Source: a virus. Taken from it: a DNA stretch of 24,200 nt. This document shows positions 11,866 to 20,002 of this stretch, piece after piece (the first letter of the stretch is position 1; every line of letters begins with the position of its first letter). The stretch is from the IMG/VR virus record IMGVR_UViG_3300022919_000012, positions 1 to 24,200 of that record; one strand, 5' to 3'. Below the pieces are notes generated by a model, which saw only the letters and a program-made list of their open reading frames with translations, did not search any database and was not told the origin of the DNA. The position numbers were made by a program, and so were the translations under genes.

Positions 11866-11897
11866 TTTGGTTATAAAGTGTAACTTATTTATATTTG
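11866..11897 (+). promoter_or_regulatory. Bacteroidota promoter resembling the early promoter
   Basis: TTTG (11866-11869), a 20-base spacer, then TATATTTG (11890-11897): a full match to the Bacteroidota sigma-A consensus. Bases 11885-11901 match 1360-1376 of the early promoter in 16 of 17 positions, including the TTAT and TTTGTCAC parts. The ATG follows the -7 box by 4 bases. Shared control by the repressor or the Ner-like protein is a natural inference. Confidence 0.7.
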
Positions 11898-11901
11898 TCA
11901 C

Positions 11902-12177
11902 ATGTCAGTAACCTTAAACCGAAGTCTTGGAGTACAGCGTAATAAACTATTGCGTTACAAGCTTATTAAAGAACTGTATCAAAAAAGCGTTCAGGAACAT
12001 CCTTATACTCCGACAACAAAAATATTGGAAATCTACATAGTTCCAATATATCCAATTTCCCGAACTACCTTATATGAAATTCTTTGCACTTCAGTTGCAA
12101 CCGAACTTAAAGAAGTTGAAGCTGCCATTGAAAAGCAGCGTGAATTAAAAGCGTCTCAAATTCGTTTATTCGATTAG
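11902..12177 (+). CDS. Small protein, candidate DNA-binding regulator
   Basis: A 91-residue basic protein. The segment TTKILEIYIVPIYPISRTTLYEILC (residues 33-57) reads like a helix-turn-helix, with SRTTLYEIL as recognition helix. A charged helix closes the protein (VATELKEVEAAIEKQRELKASQIRLF). It stands alone, with its own consensus promoter that copies the early promoter, and its end overlaps the converging tail-terminator gene by 4 bases. In Mu the middle/late regulators Mor and C lie between early and late genes, which is where this gene sits. A late-gene activator role is inferred from position only. No second start codon exists near the N terminus, so the ATG next to the promoter is probably real. 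Confidence 0.6.
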   Translation: MSVTLNRSLGVQRNKLLRYKLIKELYQKSVQEHPYTPTTKILEIYIVPIYPISRTTLYEILCTSVATELKEVEAAIEKQRELKASQIRLFD

Positions 12178-12626
12178 GTATTTGTAAAGCCTATTGTGTA
12201 AGTAATTTGATATTCTTGAATCCCGTCATCACGCCTAATTCTTTTTAAACTGGTTCGCATTAAAGCTCCCGACTTTTCAAGTGGCTTCCATCCATGCACA
12301 ATTTTGTGTAAATCTTCAATTATTGTCCAAATGGTCCACGCGTTGTTTTTTTGCGATTGTGGCGCGCGGTGGCTTGTATTGCTCAATTTCACATCGGCCA
12401 CAATGAAAGTTACTGTGCCTTCTCCTAATTGACGGTTAACGGGACTGCTGCTATTATCTTTTCCGATGTTGCTGTAATTCATTGACGTAATATCAATAAG
12501 GGCACAAGGAAACATTGTTGGCGGATTTGGACTGTAACTGTCCATCTGTCCCCAGTCTTCATCGATATATTTTAAAGCCGGTAAAGTGGCTAATTTTGTT
12601 TGAACAGCTTCTAAAAATGCTTTCAT
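12174..12626 (-). CDS. Tail terminator-like protein
   Basis: Fits the phage tail terminator pattern: 'FPCALIDI' strand near residue 40, then 'GEGTVTFIVADVKLS' (about 68-82), a helix 'IWTIIEDLHKIVHGW', and a final pair of strands 'RTSLKRIRRDDGIQEYQITYTIGF'. These proteins cap the tail tube and join tail to head. At 150 residues it is of usual size. It is the last gene of the leftward late cluster, and its start overlaps the stop of the gpG-like gene by 4 bases (ATGA type). Confidence 0.65.
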   Translation of the reverse strand: MKAFLEAVQTKLATLPALKYIDEDWGQMDSYSPNPPTMFPCALIDITSMNYSNIGKDNSSSPVNRQLGEGTVTFIVADVKLSNTSHRAPQSQKNNAWTIWTIIEDLHKIVHGWKPLEKSGALMRTSLKRIRRDDGIQEYQITYTIGFTNT

Positions 12627-13156
12627 TTTTGTTTGAGTTGATTATAATAATAATTTTCTAATTCTTTCATATTAACGCTGACAATATCTTCAATTCGTTG
12701 TCGTAAGATTGGATGATCACCAATAAACTGGCGTTGTTCGATTTTCATTTTGTGGCCAACTTTCATTAAAGCTAAATTTTTCCATTGTTGGGCTTCTGCG
12801 GACAGTCTTACGCTGCGTTCGCTTTTCCCCTTTCCTGCTGCGCCGGATGCCTTGTAAAACATAGCCCAAAAAAAGCTTTTCATTTTAGCTGTAACTTCAA
12901 TTTCGCCTCCATCATTATTAATACGCGCATAGGGAAGTGAGCTAGACCAGGAAACATTATTGGCAGATTGTTTTGAAAGAATTGAGCGGCGTAATTTACC
13001 CGATCTCATCAACAGGGAACCTCGTTGATTCGGTAAATTTGTTCCACGCCATTTTTTATTGAAAAATGCTTTACGTTCAAAATTTCTGTCAAATTCTTCC
13101 GTTAAGTCTACTCTAACATCAGATATTATGTTTTTTATAAAATCGTTAGGATTCAT
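12623..13156 (-). CDS. gpG-like virion morphogenesis / tail completion protein
   Basis: Belongs by pattern to the 'phage virion morphogenesis' family (Mu gpG, P2 gpS type), needed for stable tails or head-tail joining. Visible marks are 'LMRSGKLRRSI' (residues 49-59), then 'SSSLPYARINNDGGEI' (71-86) and the C-terminal 'RQFIGDHPILRQRIEDIV' matching the family's closing 'R-flG-s------i--i'. Length 177 is typical. It is co-transcribed with the tail terminator gene. A 323-base gap to the MuF gene upstream holds the oppositely oriented 92-residue gene, so it may need read-through across that gene. Confidence 0.78.
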   Translation of the reverse strand: MNPNDFIKNIISDVRVDLTEEFDRNFERKAFFNKKWRGTNLPNQRGSLLMRSGKLRRSILSKQSANNVSWSSSLPYARINNDGGEIEVTAKMKSFFWAMFYKASGAAGKGKSERSVRLSAEAQQWKNLALMKVGHKMKIEQRQFIGDHPILRQRIEDIVSVNMKELENYYYNQLKQK

Positions 13157-13174
13157 GTTTTTAAACTTAATGTG

Positions 13175-13203
13175 TTGTTATTCAAATTAGTTTTGTAATT
13201 TTG
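13175..13203 (+). promoter_or_regulatory. Rightward promoter inside the leftward late cluster
   Basis: TTG (13175-13177), an 18-base spacer, then TAATTTTG (13196-13203), a match to the Bacteroidota consensus. The ATG of the 92-residue gene follows after 5 bases. It carries no TTATCC or TTTGTCAC element, unlike the early and 11902 promoters, so it may be active in the lysogen. Confidence 0.6.
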
Positions 13204-13208
13204 TTTTT

Positions 13209-13487
13209 ATGGAAACAATTTTTGACTATTCACCAACAGACCAGGAACTGATCGGCATTCGCTTCGATGCCTTTTCCTTATGTCTAAAATTTGGTATAGA
13301 CACAGAAAAAGAGCTCACTCCGGAGCTTTACAAAGAACTTGTTTCACAAGAAAATGCTTTCTATGATCTTGCTGTTTTATATGAGATTAGAAACGATCAG
13401 GTTAAAGCAGATCAGTATTGGAAAAAACTGCCTAAAGAACTTCAATCTGATGGCTTAGGTTTTGACTGCATCGACATAGCTATTTAG
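13209..13487 (+). CDS. Small acidic protein convergent with MuF, candidate immunity or lysogenic gene
   Basis: A 92-residue helical protein, strongly acidic (19 Asp/Glu against 9 Lys/Arg by my count), the only rightward gene in a 6.6-kb leftward cluster. Its end overlaps the 3' end of the MuF gene by 8 bases. The part 'FYDLAVLYEIRNDQVKADQYWKKL' (51-74) resembles a single TPR/Sel1 unit. It has its own consensus promoter and no other likely start, so the mRNA would be close to leaderless. Small size, acidity, independent expression and adjacency to a MuF protein with an HExxH domain fit an immunity protein. That function is an inference; no immunity family is recognised. Confidence 0.65.
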   Translation: METIFDYSPTDQELIGIRFDAFSLCLKFGIDTEKELTPELYKELVSQENAFYDLAVLYEIRNDQVKADQYWKKLPKELQSDGLGFDCIDIAI

Positions 13488-14991
13488 TGTTTTCATTAAA
13501 ATACTCTGTTACTTTAGTACCAATCGAGCTGTAATCTTCCATTAAAAACGGCATTAAATCTTTTGCAGCTTTAATTTCATCGATCTTTCTGCTTTTTAGA
13601 TTTGCTCTAAATTCAGTAATCCATCCTTTATATCCATATCCGTTATCGAGAATCTCTTTTTGGTGTGATGCTTGACCTCCTAATTTTTTAATAAATTCAG
13701 GATAAGTATGTCGGGCGCAAAATTGATTTACTGTCTCCATATTTTTGGTTCCGATAGTACTTAAATTTTTAGGTGCTGTTTTCGTTTTTGCATGTAAAAT
13801 TTCATGCCACAAACTTTCAAATGAATATTCCTGGTTAAAGGTCATTTTCTTACCGCTTTTAATAGCTCCTAATCCTGCTCTGAACTCCTCTAATGGAGTA
13901 AATTTAATACTTGAAAACTCATAACTGCTTAATGTAATTTTAGAACCTCCAACCCATTCGCCGGTTCGTGGACTGTATGACATCGAGTGCTGCATCATGT
14001 AAGAAGTAGATTTTAAAAATTTCACATCTTCCAAACCTCTTCTGAAATCTTCTGGAGATAACTCCGCATACTTTGTCAGAACAGTCTTTATTTCTTTGTT
14101 TGTCGGTAAATCTCCTTTTATGTAATCTGATAAATTCAGAGCATTAACAGGTTTAATTGTTTGCTCGACAACGTCTTTTGCTCCTTTTACTTTTCCATAC
14201 GGATGCGCTGGAGGAAACACCACTTTTTGCGCTCCGGGATTAAACCTGAAAATTTCAAGTCTGTTCTTGCCATCTTTTCCAACTTCAGTTGTAGCCTTTT
14301 CACCTGATTTAACTGCAATGTCAGAATCACTTACATTGTATTTGCCTTTGAGAACCTCCACTGCAACGCATCGGCACCGCCATCCATTAGGCGGATAGTA
14401 TAAGCTCCAAAATGGATCTTCTTTTGGCAGGGTTATATCATGCAAAACCTGATGCGAAGCTCTTACACGTTCATCCTGAGCAGTTCTGTATTGTAAATTG
14501 TAGCGGTCACCAAGATTAGACCATTGTGCAGCTGCTTGAGAACTTGCAACTGCAAATTCATACTCTGCCTCGAGGTAATTCTGATTATAATTAATATTCA
14601 GTTTATCGAAATCTTTACTTACTTCAGAAAATGGTTTAAGTCTTCCATCATTATTTAGTAATAATTTTGAAGCTTCGAACAATTGTGCATTTGCTTTGAG
14701 TGAACCAAACAACCGGGCATTGTTTTGCAATTCATTTCTCATAACCTCTGGCATGTCGTTATCTTTGATGGCGAAATCAAAAACATCAAAAGTCGATTGT
14801 ATTAGTTTTTGATATGGCTTTTCTTTTTTTAAGTCTTCAGGCGAATAACTTCCTTTTTTGTGAAGGTGTTTAAATGCCTTTTCACCATCTTTTAAAAGCT
14901 GTTTAAAATTATCAGAAATACCCAAATTTACAACTGTAGAACTACGCTTGCAGTCATCGCATGTGCAGTTGTATAAATTTTCTAATCTCAA
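13480..14991 (-). CDS. MuF-type minor head protein with C-terminal HExxH domain
   Basis: Residues 1-230 form the MuF/SPP1-gp7 head morphogenesis domain. It has the family's core 'YNLQYRTAQDERVRASHQ' (163-180) and 'WSLYYPPNGWRCRC' (195-208), plus an N-terminal CTCDDC cluster. MuF proteins sit at the portal and can be ejected with DNA. After a linker (about 215-300), the C-terminal ~200 residues are extra compared with minimal MuF proteins. They contain SLWHEILHAKTK with H396-E397-I-L-H400, the zinc-metallopeptidase signature; a Glu or His further on (for example in METVNQFCARHTY) could be the third ligand. MuF fusions to toxin domains are known in temperate phages, so this may be an injected effector. 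A hairpin precedes the gene. Confidence 0.85.
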   Translation of the reverse strand: MRLENLYNCTCDDCKRSSTVVNLGISDNFKQLLKDGEKAFKHLHKKGSYSPEDLKKEKPYQKLIQSTFDVFDFAIKDNDMPEVMRNELQNNARLFGSLKANAQLFEASKLLLNNDGRLKPFSEVSKDFDKLNINYNQNYLEAEYEFAVASSQAAAQWSNLGDRYNLQYRTAQDERVRASHQVLHDITLPKEDPFWSLYYPPNGWRCRCVAVEVLKGKYNVSDSDIAVKSGEKATTEVGKDGKNRLEIFRFNPGAQKVVFPPAHPYGKVKGAKDVVEQTIKPVNALNLSDYIKGDLPTNKEIKTVLTKYAELSPEDFRRGLEDVKFLKSTSYMMQHSMSYSPRTGEWVGGSKITLSSYEFSSIKFTPLEEFRAGLGAIKSGKKMTFNQEYSFESLWHEILHAKTKTAPKNLSTIGTKNMETVNQFCARHTYPEFIKKLGGQASHQKEILDNGYGYKGWITEFRANLKSRKIDEIKAAKDLMPFLMEDYSSIGTKVTEYFNENTK

Positions 14992-14996
14992 ATGTA

Positions 14997-15019
14997 AAGC
15001 CCTGAAATAATCAGGGCTT
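14997..15019 (-). terminator. Hairpin between portal and MuF genes
   Basis: AAGCCCTGA (14997-15005) and TCAGGGCTT (15011-15019) form a perfect 9-bp stem with a 5-base loop, overlapping the portal stop codon. On the transcribed strand it is followed only by TTTACATTTG, so full termination is doubtful. Attenuation or mRNA processing between portal and MuF is more likely. Confidence 0.45.
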
Positions 15020-16247
15020 AAACGAAAAAATCTTGACCGAGATTCAAAGATAACTTTGATGCCGGTTCTACCTTTTTAGTCCCTAGAACTTTAATTCCAA
15101 ATTTTGATTCTATCCATTTTGGGTCTATTTCTAAAAAAGCCGCCGCTTCAGTTACCATTTTCCACAATGTTTCTAAATCTTCAGTAGCATCATATTTATA
15201 CATAACACCAGGAGGCAGAATACCTAAAACTTGCAATGCGGGAATAACCGTATCACGCCAGCATTGTTCAATTAAAGAAAGGTCACTATCTACTAAGTCG
15301 TCAAGAATTCCAATAGAGGTTTTTTCTTTACCGTTTGAACCATTTTTGGTGTCCTGACCAACGACGGTTCCGGACACGCCCATCGATATTTCATTGTTAC
15401 AGAACTTTAATAAATTGGCATAAACATCACCGTTAGTGCTGACTCCTTTTGCGAACTCGAAACTTTCAGAGTCATCAATAATAAAATATGCCGCCGAACC
15501 CATGTCAGCCATCATTTGTTTGGCACGGTTCACCATAACCCTGTCCTGTGTATTGGTTTTCATCACACGGGGAGGAATCCCATATATTTCGCAAAGTTCA
15601 CTCCAGCAGCTGCCGCCAAATCTTTTAAATAGAACCATAGGAACACAGCCATCTAACAGGCCTAATGTTGTGTTTTTCTCACCAAACTCAATTAACCAAG
15701 TTCCGTATTCTGCCTGCTCTCGATAGTTAATTTTCTTATCATCGGTATAGTCATAATATAGATAGCCGGTGACAGGGTCAACATTTTGGCGCGGAATACA
15801 GTCAAAGGTCAGTACCGGTTCGTTATTTACCAATTTATATGAGAACTGACCAAGAGAATGGCGCTTGAAAATCGTTTCTAAAATCGCTTTGTTAATCTGA
15901 AATACAAAGCCTTTATCCTGCAGTAATGTAGTTAAATCATCGTTGGTCTTGCCATCCGCATTTTTGATACTGAATGGTCTGCTTAAAGATTTAAGCATTC
16001 GGTTGTTGACCTGTGATTGCAGATGTAAATCTCTTAAAATATTATCATATAGGTTTTGAATAGGAAAAAATTTTGGGTCCTTTTCTAACTGTGCTAAATT
16101 TTGTGCATTTGTCCAAGTCTTAATATCCTGCCTTGTCTGGCTGATTGTTTTAGGTACAATACCGGAAATATAGTTTGTCGAAGGCCCTTTTACTTTCCAG
16201 GCTCCTGTCTTATCCGCTAATTCAAAAATTGTGTTTGGTGCTGACAT
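15018..16247 (-). CDS. Portal protein, Mu gp29-like (DUF935)
   Basis: Forms the dodecameric ring at the capsid vertex through which DNA is packaged and ejected. It matches DUF935: 'FKRHSLGQFSYKLV' in the first third, 'WSELCEIYGIPPRVMKT' (around 216-232), then 'NNEISMGVSGTVVGQD' and 'NGSNG' (around 285-310), where the family has 'lg-tl-t---g-Gs-a'. Length 409 is slightly shorter than many members (430-520). It lies between the gp36-like and MuF genes, in the Mu order terminase, portal, MuF, with the gp36-like gene displaced to a place before the portal. Confidence 0.88.
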   Translation of the reverse strand: MSAPNTIFELADKTGAWKVKGPSTNYISGIVPKTISQTRQDIKTWTNAQNLAQLEKDPKFFPIQNLYDNILRDLHLQSQVNNRMLKSLSRPFSIKNADGKTNDDLTTLLQDKGFVFQINKAILETIFKRHSLGQFSYKLVNNEPVLTFDCIPRQNVDPVTGYLYYDYTDDKKINYREQAEYGTWLIEFGEKNTTLGLLDGCVPMVLFKRFGGSCWSELCEIYGIPPRVMKTNTQDRVMVNRAKQMMADMGSAAYFIIDDSESFEFAKGVSTNGDVYANLLKFCNNEISMGVSGTVVGQDTKNGSNGKEKTSIGILDDLVDSDLSLIEQCWRDTVIPALQVLGILPPGVMYKYDATEDLETLWKMVTEAAAFLEIDPKWIESKFGIKVLGTKKVEPASKLSLNLGQDFFV

Positions 16248-16256
16248 TTTATTATC

Positions 16257-16718
16257 TTAATATTCGTGATTAAATTTTTCTCTAGACCCCATTTCGAAAG
16301 GCTGTTTTTCTCCTGCTGTCATGTCGTCACGCACAAGTTGCGGCAGGGTTGAAACATTTATTTTTCCTTCAGCTACCTTAGTAAACCAAGATACAGCCCT
16401 ATCGTATCTGTCTTTTGCTTTTTCGTAGATAAAATCAGCATTGCAGAGTTCTGCTAAGTACCATTTTGCCATTGTGTTGCATTGTCGTACAACCAACGAA
16501 TGGCGGTCATTTCCGGTTTTGTTAAAAATGTTTTCCACGTCATATAACAATCTCCCATCGAGCCATTTTTTATTGTCAGTATTAGGCGTTAGATAGCTTC
16601 TAGCCTCTTCAATGGCCGCATTACATGCTTGATCTACTTTACCATCATCACCGTCAGTAATTTGGTCTATTTGGTACTCATATATGCTGGTTCCTAAATC
16701 TTCTTTGTCTAAAAACAT
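16257..16718 (-). CDS. gp36-like protein (DUF1320), head-tail connector
   Basis: Fits the DUF1320/gp36 family of Mu-like phages, probably an adaptor on the portal. It starts with 'MFLDKEDLGTSIYEYQIDQIT', the family's usual opening. The helix 'VDQACNAAIEEARSYL' (28-43) follows, then 'RHSLVVRQCNTMAKWYLAELCN' and 'YDRAVSWFTKVAEGKI', the closing helix of the family. Length 153 is typical. It lies 26 bases from TerL and 9 bases from the portal gene in the same transcript. In Mu, gp36 follows the capsid gene, so the position here is a rearrangement. Confidence 0.82.
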   Translation of the reverse strand: MFLDKEDLGTSIYEYQIDQITDGDDGKVDQACNAAIEEARSYLTPNTDNKKWLDGRLLYDVENIFNKTGNDRHSLVVRQCNTMAKWYLAELCNADFIYEKAKDRYDRAVSWFTKVAEGKINVSTLPQLVRDDMTAGEKQPFEMGSREKFNHEY

Positions 16719-19009: not shown

Positions 19010-20002
19010 ATGCCAAGACCAGAATACTTTGTTTTTAATGATGAAAATGTGAAAAACTCTTATGGTTTTTACATCAATACATTGGGGATTAAAATGGATC
19101 GTTTCAATGACAATCCTGTCATGTTAAACAATCATATCAATAGCACTGAAAATGTTATTGGCAACTGGTCTGACCCATTGAAGGAAAACGGATTGTTAAA
19201 ACTAAAACCACATTTCGATGAAGAAAGTAATCTAGGAAAAGACGTAGCCGGAAAAGTAGATCGCGGTTTCTTAAAGGGCTGTTCAATGGGCATTATACCG
19301 GACTGGGACAGCGTGCAAAGAATCGGCGATCGCTTAATTATGATGGAATGCGAACTGGCGGAAGGAACTATTATTCCGGTACCATCCAACAAAGGAGCAA
19401 TTGCGATTTATAGTGCTGATGGTACAGAAGTTTTGAAAGCTGACGATATTAAATCCCTTTGTCTTTCAGTCAGCGAAAAGCTGAACGAAACCCCAAAAAA
19501 ATTAAACACAATTATAGATATGAACAAAATTATTTTAAGCGTAGGTGCGCTTGTAGCTTTAGGTTTTACAGACCAGCCAAAAGACGGTATTGAAGTTTCC
19601 GATGTTGAAGCAAAGGTCTTAAGTCTGTCAAAGCAGGTAACGGATTTGACGAATAAAAACAACGGACTGGAATTGGCCGCTAAAACTGCAAAAGAGGCAC
19701 AGGATGCGGCCGTAAAATTATCAGCTAATCAAAAAGTTGATCTAGCGATCACACAAGGAAAAATACCAGCCGACAAAAAGGAAGCTTTCGTACAATTGGG
19801 AATTACTTCCCCAGAAATATTGGAAACTACTTTAGCATCGATTCCTGGTAAAAAGGATTTTAGTGCTGGAATTATGATTCCGGGAGGAAACGGTGTCACT
19901 GAAATCAAAACAATGGATGAGTTTGAAAAGCTTTCCCATTCAGAAAAATTGAGCTTTAAGGACTCTAATCCTGATGCTTACAAGAAATTGTTTAACCAAT
20001 AA
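19010..20002 (+). CDS. Head maturation protease fused to scaffold (Mu gpI-like)
   Basis: Processes the prohead and scaffolds capsid assembly. The N-terminal ~160 residues form an S78/HK97-type prohead protease domain: His in MLNNHIN (H42), Ser in GFLKGCSMGI (S92), then 'MECELAEGTIIPVPSN' (around 122-137), the family's closing strand. After a linker, residues 195-240 form a coiled coil (VLSLSKQVTDLTNKNNGLEL...). The acidic C-terminal part has the look of a scaffold. It is the first gene of the rightward late cluster, 10 bases before the capsid gene. An internal ATG at 19520 may give a scaffold-only product, as gpZ does in Mu. Confidence 0.85.
   Translation: MPRPEYFVFNDENVKNSYGFYINTLGIKMDRFNDNPVMLNNHINSTENVIGNWSDPLKENGLLKLKPHFDEESNLGKDVAGKVDRGFLKGCSMGIIPDWDSVQRIGDRLIMMECELAEGTIIPVPSNKGAIAIYSADGTEVLKADDIKSLCLSVSEKLNETPKKLNTIIDMNKIILSVGALVALGFTDQPKDGIEVSDVEAKVLSLSKQVTDLTNKNNGLELAAKTAKEAQDAAVKLSANQKVDLAITQGKIPADKKEAFVQLGITSPEILETTLASIPGKKDFSAGIMIPGGNGVTEIKTMDEFEKLSHSEKLSFKDSNPDAYKKLFNQ
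19520..20002 (+). CDS. Possible nested scaffold protein (internal start)
   Basis: An in-frame ATG at residue 171 of the protease-scaffold gene follows an A/T-rich leader (attatagat), like the genuine starts in this window. It opens with MNKIILSVGALVALGFT, which reads as an independent N terminus after a low-complexity junction (ETPKKLNTIID). The product would be 160 residues comprising the coiled coil and the acidic tail. Mu makes gpZ scaffold from an internal start in gene I, so the arrangement has a direct precedent. Not proven here. Confidence 0.4.
   Translation: MNKIILSVGALVALGFTDQPKDGIEVSDVEAKVLSLSKQVTDLTNKNNGLELAAKTAKEAQDAAVKLSANQKVDLAITQGKIPADKKEAFVQLGITSPEILETTLASIPGKKDFSAGIMIPGGNGVTEIKTMDEFEKLSHSEKLSFKDSNPDAYKKLFNQ

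Follow-up and report, generated by a model that had tools for sequence, protein, structure and literature searches.

A Probable Toxin–Immunity Pair, with the Immunity Gene on the Opposite Strand, at the MuF Locus of a Mu-Like Phage

Introduction

Polymorphic toxins fused to the phage head protein MuF have been proposed in temperate phages from domain architecture; 20% of 191 such toxins carry a metallopeptidase domain, the small open reading frame (ORF) that follows is presumed to encode immunity (Jamet 2017, PMC5576092), and particles of phage StB12 are reported to contain one such toxin (PMC5576092). How the lysogen is protected while its late operon is off is left open in the MuF literature as far as it was searched. 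Here we analyse a MuF gene and the small gene convergent with it in a Mu-like phage (IMG/VR record IMGVR_UViG_3300022919_000012, positions 1–24,200; this whole stretch of 24,200 nt is referred to as the window). The two probably constitute a phage polymorphic toxin and its convergent immunity gene, the toxin being borne on the head and immunity being made while the late genes are silent. The window suggests an answer that recalls some colicins: an immunity gene that is encoded opposite the toxin and driven by a separate promoter, and that is exchanged along with the toxin as a segment with sharp edges.

The locus resembles the described MuF toxins in having MuF beside the portal gene, a variable C-terminal toxin, and a small neighbouring ORF, but those toxins come mostly from Firmicutes, and the parts of the survey consulted name neither the present domain nor its immunity family and yielded no statement on the strand of the small ORF (PMC5576092). 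Bxa, a MuF-type toxin of a Bacteroidales prophage and an ADP-ribosyltransferase, is toxic to E. coli, and immunity genes beside its own neutralise it; Bxa and its relatives share with the window a MuF-type N-terminus, exchangeable C-terminal toxins, and neighbouring immunity (PMC11699363). The PHROG family named after Bxa, phrog_16625, is not among the matches of the window's own N-terminus; divergent N-termini that bear the window's C-terminal domain match this family in 8/8 cases, and the zincin–immunity pair is thus also present in phages with N-termini of the Bxa type.

In pore-forming and M-type colicins the immunity gene lies opposite the toxin strand and has its own promoter (PMC9517006, PMC8469651, PMC6723558), but colicins are plasmid bacteriocins rather than phage-head proteins; the likeness is one of gene arrangement, and no sequence relation is claimed. 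The zincin-like metallopeptidase (MPTase) domains of polyvalent proteins, which are injected with the phage DNA, consist of a helix, three strands, the HExxH helix, and a helix bearing a Glu, a core order that is also predicted for the window's domain (PMC5512222). Unlike them, the window's domain has no Pfam match to such models, is exchanged as a single unit, and has a small protein partner of its own. A 2012 survey of polymorphic toxins counted only same-strand genes as operons and, beyond these, considered only head-to-head pairs (PMC3482391); the arrangement described here points to a way of finding immunity genes that escape rules confined to same-strand operons.

A preliminary description of this locus had suggested that it would be a new arrangement. 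This stands within MuF toxins, as far as the literature was searched, and is limited to them because MuF–metallopeptidase fusions (PMC5576092) and opposite-strand colicin immunity (PMC9517006, PMC8469651) were already known. With partial coverage, our search of the literature found no convergent immunity in MuF toxins, no report of this pair of domain and partner, and no base-level definition of an exchanged block. The yield of the analysis is a new putative pair, comprising the zincin-like domain and a protein that begins METIFD, and several more candidate pairs.

Results and Discussion

Two Convergent Genes That Occur Together

The features on which the argument draws are the following.

13480–14991, minus strand: MuF gene, 503 aa, TTG start
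13480–14127, minus strand: MuF C-terminal domain (residues 289–503; H396, E397, H400, E419), proposed zincin toxin
14128–14991, minus strand: MuF N-terminal head part, common to sister phages with other C-termini or none
13209–13487, plus strand: small gene, proposed immunity protein, 92 aa, acidic, all-helical, N-terminal motif METIFD
13175–13203, plus strand: TTG-N18-TAATTTTG, a promoter of Bacteroidota type that serves the small gene, with a predicted transcription start at about 13208, beside the ATG
13175–14127, no strand assigned: exchangeable block of toxin domain, small gene, and promoter, as defined by alignment with relatives
15018–16247, minus strand: portal gene of Mu type, immediately upstream of MuF (PF06074, E value 2.1e-66)
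19010–20002: separate prohead-protease-like gene (Peptidase_S78, 20.3 bits, below the cut-off of 21)

The small gene occupies the gap between the MuF and tail-completion genes. The preliminary description had reported a MuF protein with an extra C-terminal part containing H396-E-I-L-H400, overlapped at the 3' end of its gene by an acidic gene of 92 residues that was the only rightward gene in a leftward cluster. All of this is borne out: the extra domain measures about 215 residues, the overlap is 8 nt, the net charge of the small protein (K+R minus D+E) is −10, and no other gene points rightward between 12174 and 18821. Residues 142–210 of the long protein match Pfam Phage_Mu_F (PF04233; E value 4.5e-11, 43.9 bits, cut-off 29.6), and the portal gene is the next gene upstream, as in the known MuF toxins.

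Bacterial genome contigs scanned with the last 206 residues of MuF yielded five loci (loci carry L numbers below), in Flavobacterium hydrocarbonoxydans (L002), F. hydrophilum (L003), a Flavobacterium metagenome-assembled genome (MAG; L004), Wenyingzhuangia heitensis (L005), and a Bacteroidetes MAG (L006). In 5/5 the small gene has a homologue that is convergent with MuF and overlaps its 3' end. In viral contigs the domain as query gave 18 loci, the small protein, used independently, gave 21, and a DNA pattern that encodes the start of the small protein gave 12 stretches; the three scans converged on the same loci.

Both proteins were profiled at 41 loci, after removal of near-identical contigs and addition of genome loci L099 and L100 and of L074; the two profiles were built partly from the sequences that were then scored. 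Both genes were found at 36 loci, convergent at 35 and on the same strand at one (L053). At three the small gene stood alone at the edge of the DNA: the whole records of L054 and L057 add a convergent toxin, and the contig of L038 ends inside the small gene. Loci L109 and L110 have toxins of a second type (type B below, the window's being type A) whose small genes escape the type A profile. In total, 38 contigs contain both genes, and in 37 of them the genes converge. The occurrence of either gene without the other, which the preliminary description had named as grounds for abandoning a pair, was not observed, the lone L038 being truncated within the gene. Type II antitoxins are co-directional with their toxins, upstream or downstream, in one operon; with 37/38 contigs convergent, this is not the organisation seen here.

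Among 397 genomes of the family, the small-protein profile matched eight, of which three (G001, G315, and G006; G numbers denote genomes) are real and convergent with a toxin. The other five matches, considered as possible orphan immunity genes, are weak (E values 1.4e-4 to 7.5e-4), fall in open frames of 332–407 aa, and were judged to be due to chance; the context of one (L101) was examined. The toxin profile matched 4/397 family genomes (G001, G006, G315, and G249) and 2/395 genomes of the phylum (G001 and G735), five distinct genomes in all, each with an adjoining convergent small ORF (one locus, L106, is the same as L002). G249 has a type B toxin and a convergent 81-aa ORF that overlaps it by 24 nt; in G735 a related toxin lies 29 nt from a convergent ORF whose homology to the small gene was not confirmed. 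Three phages of quite another kind (L052, L053, and L056, of which L056 and L052 are GC-rich) also have relatives of the pair at their MuF proteins.

Many lysogenic-conversion genes have their own promoter inside a late operon, as does the small gene, which could be such a gene, or a regulator, that stands beside MuF by chance. This idea is largely refuted, and we consider it very improbable: the small gene was never found without the domain in the records searched, and the two are absent together from the short-MuF phages L060 and L061 and are exchanged together.

A Zincin-Like C-Terminal Domain

The HExxH motif and a Glu 19 residues further on (H396, E397, H400, and E419) are invariant in an alignment of 32 sequences. 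In domain numbering, to which 288 is added to obtain MuF numbering, the invariant residues are E100, H108, E109, H112, E131, N134, R139, and Y166. A pattern of HExxH plus the downstream Glu was matched in 34/36 contigs that hold both genes; of the other two, L051 encodes only the last 80 toxin residues in frame, and L056, which lies outside the alignment, retains HExxH but has Thr in place of the Asn after the Glu (N134).

The AlphaFold2 model of the domain (mean predicted local distance difference test score, pLDDT, 96.5) has a helix at 10–23, strands at 32–38, 45–52, and 57–67, a helix at 78–91, the HExxH helix at 97–114, and the Glu helix at 124–148, so that the ligands lie in consecutive helices. 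This order is that of the zincin core described for polyvalent proteins (PMC5512222), and it counts towards a zincin-like toxin. The best row of a VIA-align structural comparison was dipeptidyl peptidase III (DPP III; Z 8.3, root-mean-square deviation 4.5, 180 residues aligned), followed by rows of Z 5.6 and lower, mostly zincins (Z about 4–5.6). The domain is contained in PHROG 35295, a family of unknown function. Its net charge is positive in 25/28 sequences, and the ratio of nonsynonymous to synonymous differences per site (pN/pS) is 0.19. A tblastn search for the domain in cultured phages, covering 50,697 phage records, found nothing at E ≤ 0.1, though 191 of them matched whole MuF. The invariant motif and the order of strands and helices in the model suggest a zincin-like domain, a putative antibacterial metallopeptidase.

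A protease that sits on a head protein and has an obligate partner might instead be a maturation enzyme that trims head proteins or MuF itself, with the small protein as its inhibitor or chaperone; head maturation proteases do exist. This is improbable in view of sister phages that have the same gene order and a short MuF without the domain, of the unrelated domains that replace it elsewhere, and of the separate prohead-protease-like gene of the window.

The Small Acidic Protein

For the small protein AlphaFold2 predicts seven helices (mean pLDDT 86) and a disordered tail at residues 85–92. M1, T3, E13, L57, and R61 are invariant in 27 sequences, with I4, F5, P9, and T10 nearly so, and the net charge is negative in 28/28. 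The pN/pS of 0.24 (ratio of means over 45 pairs among 10 homologues, at a pS of 0.66, which is near saturation) argues against a small ORF that arose by chance. Three weak resemblances were set aside: to the Mac family (Pfam, 15.2 bits, below the cut-off of 22.1), to DUF5517 (Pfam), and to TPR-like helices (Foldseek). Nothing related to the METIFD motif was found in the part of the literature covered by our searches.

A Promoter Conserved in Place

The preliminary description had credited the small gene with a consensus promoter of its own, and the match, TTG-N18-TAATTTTG, is indeed present at 13175–13203, ahead of the ATG. Random sequence with the dinucleotide composition of the window would be expected to hold about 4.7 full matches to the pattern, and the window holds seven. 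A single match is thus weak by itself; what gives this one weight is that its position is conserved across convergent small genes. Among 40 of these (29 of type A and 11 of types B, C, D, H, and I), 30 have TAnnTTTG no more than 40 nt from the start, compared with a mean of 3.3 and a maximum of 11 in 1000 dinucleotide shuffles. The box stands 13 nt from the start codon in 18/40 and 12–15 nt from it in 26/40, and at 13 nt in all four additional genes (L080, L099, L100, and L109). Left out of the set were L051, with a box at 12 nt, and L052, L053, L054, and L056, with none. Within 60 nt ahead of the late genes the box is found in 0/30 portal, 0/28 tail-completion, 0/29 terminator-like, 0/27 gp36-like, and 2/31 MuF genes, and just 4 of the 33 window genes have it within 25 nt of the start.

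TAnnTTTG is the −7 box of Bacteroidota. In F. psychrophilum it occupies −12 to −5, and leaderless transcripts make up 5.5% of the mRNAs that were mapped (PMC9723704). A box 12–15 nt ahead of the ATG would therefore place the transcript start 0–3 nt ahead of it, which predicts a leaderless mRNA. The small gene was also said to be without the repressor-like element of the window; the sole candidate seen, a 17-nt repeat described below, is absent from 13175–13203; a sequence found twice in AT-rich DNA is, however, a weak indication of such an element.

Exchange of the Pair as One Block

When L003 was compared with positions 12000–16300, the sole match ran from 14127 to 13175 (76.3% over 954 columns) and took in the toxin domain, the small gene, and the promoter from the first base of its TTG; the L003 toxin is 78% and its immunity protein 80% identical to those of the window, versus 28% for the MuF N-terminus. 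Sister phages with other C-termini match the window up to 14161 and again from 13214 (L058, type C), to 14169 and from 13204 (L059, type C), or to 14171 and from 13211 (L062, type D); the sequence between these edges differs, and the promoter just outside them is shared with the window. The short-MuF phages L060 (matching to 14170 and from 13168) and L061 (to 14176 and from 13161) lack the block together with its promoter. In L070, of type B, the TAnnTTTG box is kept and the promoter is not alignable. These alignments show, at the level of sequence comparison, that the toxin domain and the putative immunity gene, with the promoter if the recipient is without one, pass from one MuF gene to another as a single block. 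The near-identical phages L063/L064, L065–L067, and L068 (at least 60% of 31-mers shared) have three different C-termini; they are recent swaps, in which toxin exchange can be studied as a natural experiment.

A scan with the MuF N-terminus identified 37 loci, 29 of them close (L058–L086), whose C-termini, known toxin domains among them, diverge after a common N-terminus. The loci were tallied by hand; L077 and L086 repeat L002 and L007, and L072 and L076 are close to each other. A convergent small gene accompanies type A, the window's domain, in 3/3 loci, type B (HHExWHN) in 6/6, type C (YHEFGHA) in 3/4, type D in 2/2, type H in 1/1, and type I (Gln_amidase) in 1/1, or 16/17 for these types together. 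The type B toxin is homologous to that of type A (hhalign, 99.5%). Pfam identifies Gln_amidase in L081 (48.8 bits, cut-off 24.1), CdiA_C in L063 (26.9 bits, just above the cut-off of 26.6), and LPD3 in L065 and L085; types D and H, where scanned (L062 and L073), have no Pfam match beyond MuF. Short MuF loci have no convergent small gene (0/4), one of them (L084) having a 67-aa ORF on the same strand. The domain is therefore not a structural part common to all MuF proteins of this group with an unconserved HExxH, the other ground that the preliminary description had given for abandoning its proposal: 4/29 close relatives are short, others have different C-termini, and where the domain occurs HExxH and the Glu are kept.

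Two impressions gained by eye found no support. A T-[IV]-[FY]-D motif recurs in the type A (METIFD...) and type B (DLRTATVYD...) immunity proteins, but hhalign did not support homology (0.3% and 11%). Likenesses of the type D C-terminus to acetyltransferases and of type H to papain were set aside, and both types are left unassigned. Seven loci with other C-terminal domains (L058, L059, L062, L073, L078, L079, and L081) have convergent acidic small genes of 66–87 aa with the same promoter box and are candidate toxin–immunity pairs.

Proposed Mechanism

Comparison of sequences supports the toxin–immunity interpretation given in the preliminary description, through the obligate convergent partnership, the block exchange, the conserved promoter, and the catalytic motif. 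Work on relatives lends further support: Bxa, whose family is matched by the divergent N-termini that bear the domain (8/8), is toxic and neutralised in E. coli, and a MuF toxin is reported from StB12 particles. By its family, the MuF N-terminus would place the protein in the phage head, and the zincin-like domain would enter the next cell with the phage DNA and act there as an antibacterial metallopeptidase. The 92-aa acidic protein may bind and block the toxin domain, as suggested by the obligate partnership and the opposite charges. The immunity gene runs opposite to the late operon, has a separate promoter of house-keeping type, and is predicted to give a leaderless mRNA, so that it should be expressible with the late operon silent; the lysogen and the newly infected cell would both be protected while the operon encoding the toxin is off.

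Several results weigh against this interpretation. Delivery by the head rests on the MuF family. The domain found no Foldseek match at E ≤ 0.001, none above curated cut-offs in Pfam or NCBIfam, none in PADLOC, and none in a sequence search of solved structures, and unrelated Hsp90 rows appear in the VIA-align results at Z 4.3–4.5. A co-evolution test by distance correlation did not single out the pair (toxin–immunity 0.67, toxin–N-terminus 0.57, immunity–N-terminus 0.64). The small gene lies on the same strand as the toxin in L053 and, for type C, in L075. Among the 40 convergent genes, 10 lack TAnnTTTG within 40 nt, five of these having TAnnTTTA at 12–15 nt, and in four the box is as far away as 25–30 nt. 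No convergent small gene is confirmed at the CdiA_C loci (0/2), at L068 and L069 (0/2), or at LPD3-type loci (0/4), three of which are near-identical and have small ORFs on both strands. Among distant MuF genes, present in 9/397 genomes at 11 places (L111–L121), none that is convincing was found at L114–L118 and L120; L113 has an unverified one, and L111 and L112 are loci already counted. The eight loci of other C-termini and most distant MuF genes being without a confirmed convergent gene, the arrangement belongs to certain C-terminal types and not to MuF as such.

A possible alternative, compatible with the toxin–immunity interpretation though distinctly less probable, is that the domain is an injected effector for host take-over or counter-defence and that the small protein shields the productively infected cell rather than the lysogen. 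A house-keeping-type promoter with a predicted leaderless transcript could begin expression at entry, and injected polyvalent proteins carry zincin domains more often than any other domain (PMC5512222). The C-termini of unrelated activity found at the same place fit competition between cells better than a single step of infection. The relatives, moreover, are found in bacterial genome contigs of 0.57–2.05 Mb (770, 574, and 2048 kb for L002, L003, and L005) and are therefore probably prophages.

A more doubtful extension is that the injected protease is a conditional weapon to which the phage genome itself is the antidote. Leaderless immunity mRNA would be made from the house-keeping promoter once the DNA was intact and read, so that cells accepting or already holding the genome would live, and cells that destroy incoming DNA, by restriction or CRISPR, or cannot express it would be poisoned. 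The conserved Thr-Ile-Phe-Asp stretch at the N-terminus of the immunity protein would then fill the cleft of the active site, where its Asp might meet the zinc.

Other Features of the Window

Integrase-core and AAA genes are located at the left of the window, and the leftward late cluster (18821–12174) comprises genes for the terminase large subunit, a gp36-like protein, portal, MuF, tail completion, and a terminator-like protein. Near the N-terminus of MuF, residues 9–14 (about 14950–14967, minus strand) form a CxCxxC motif, of which C11 and C14 are invariant in 12 sequences, perhaps as a metal site.

A second small opposite-strand gene (11902–12177, plus strand, 91 aa) converges with the terminator-like gene (12174–12626), and similar genes occupy the equivalent place in L002, L004, L005, L006, and L050. 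It has TATATTTG 12 nt ahead of its ATG. A 17-nt repeat is present at 11885–11901, directly ahead of this gene, and at 1360–1376, upstream of the leftward gene 519–1376, and is possibly an operator common to the two.
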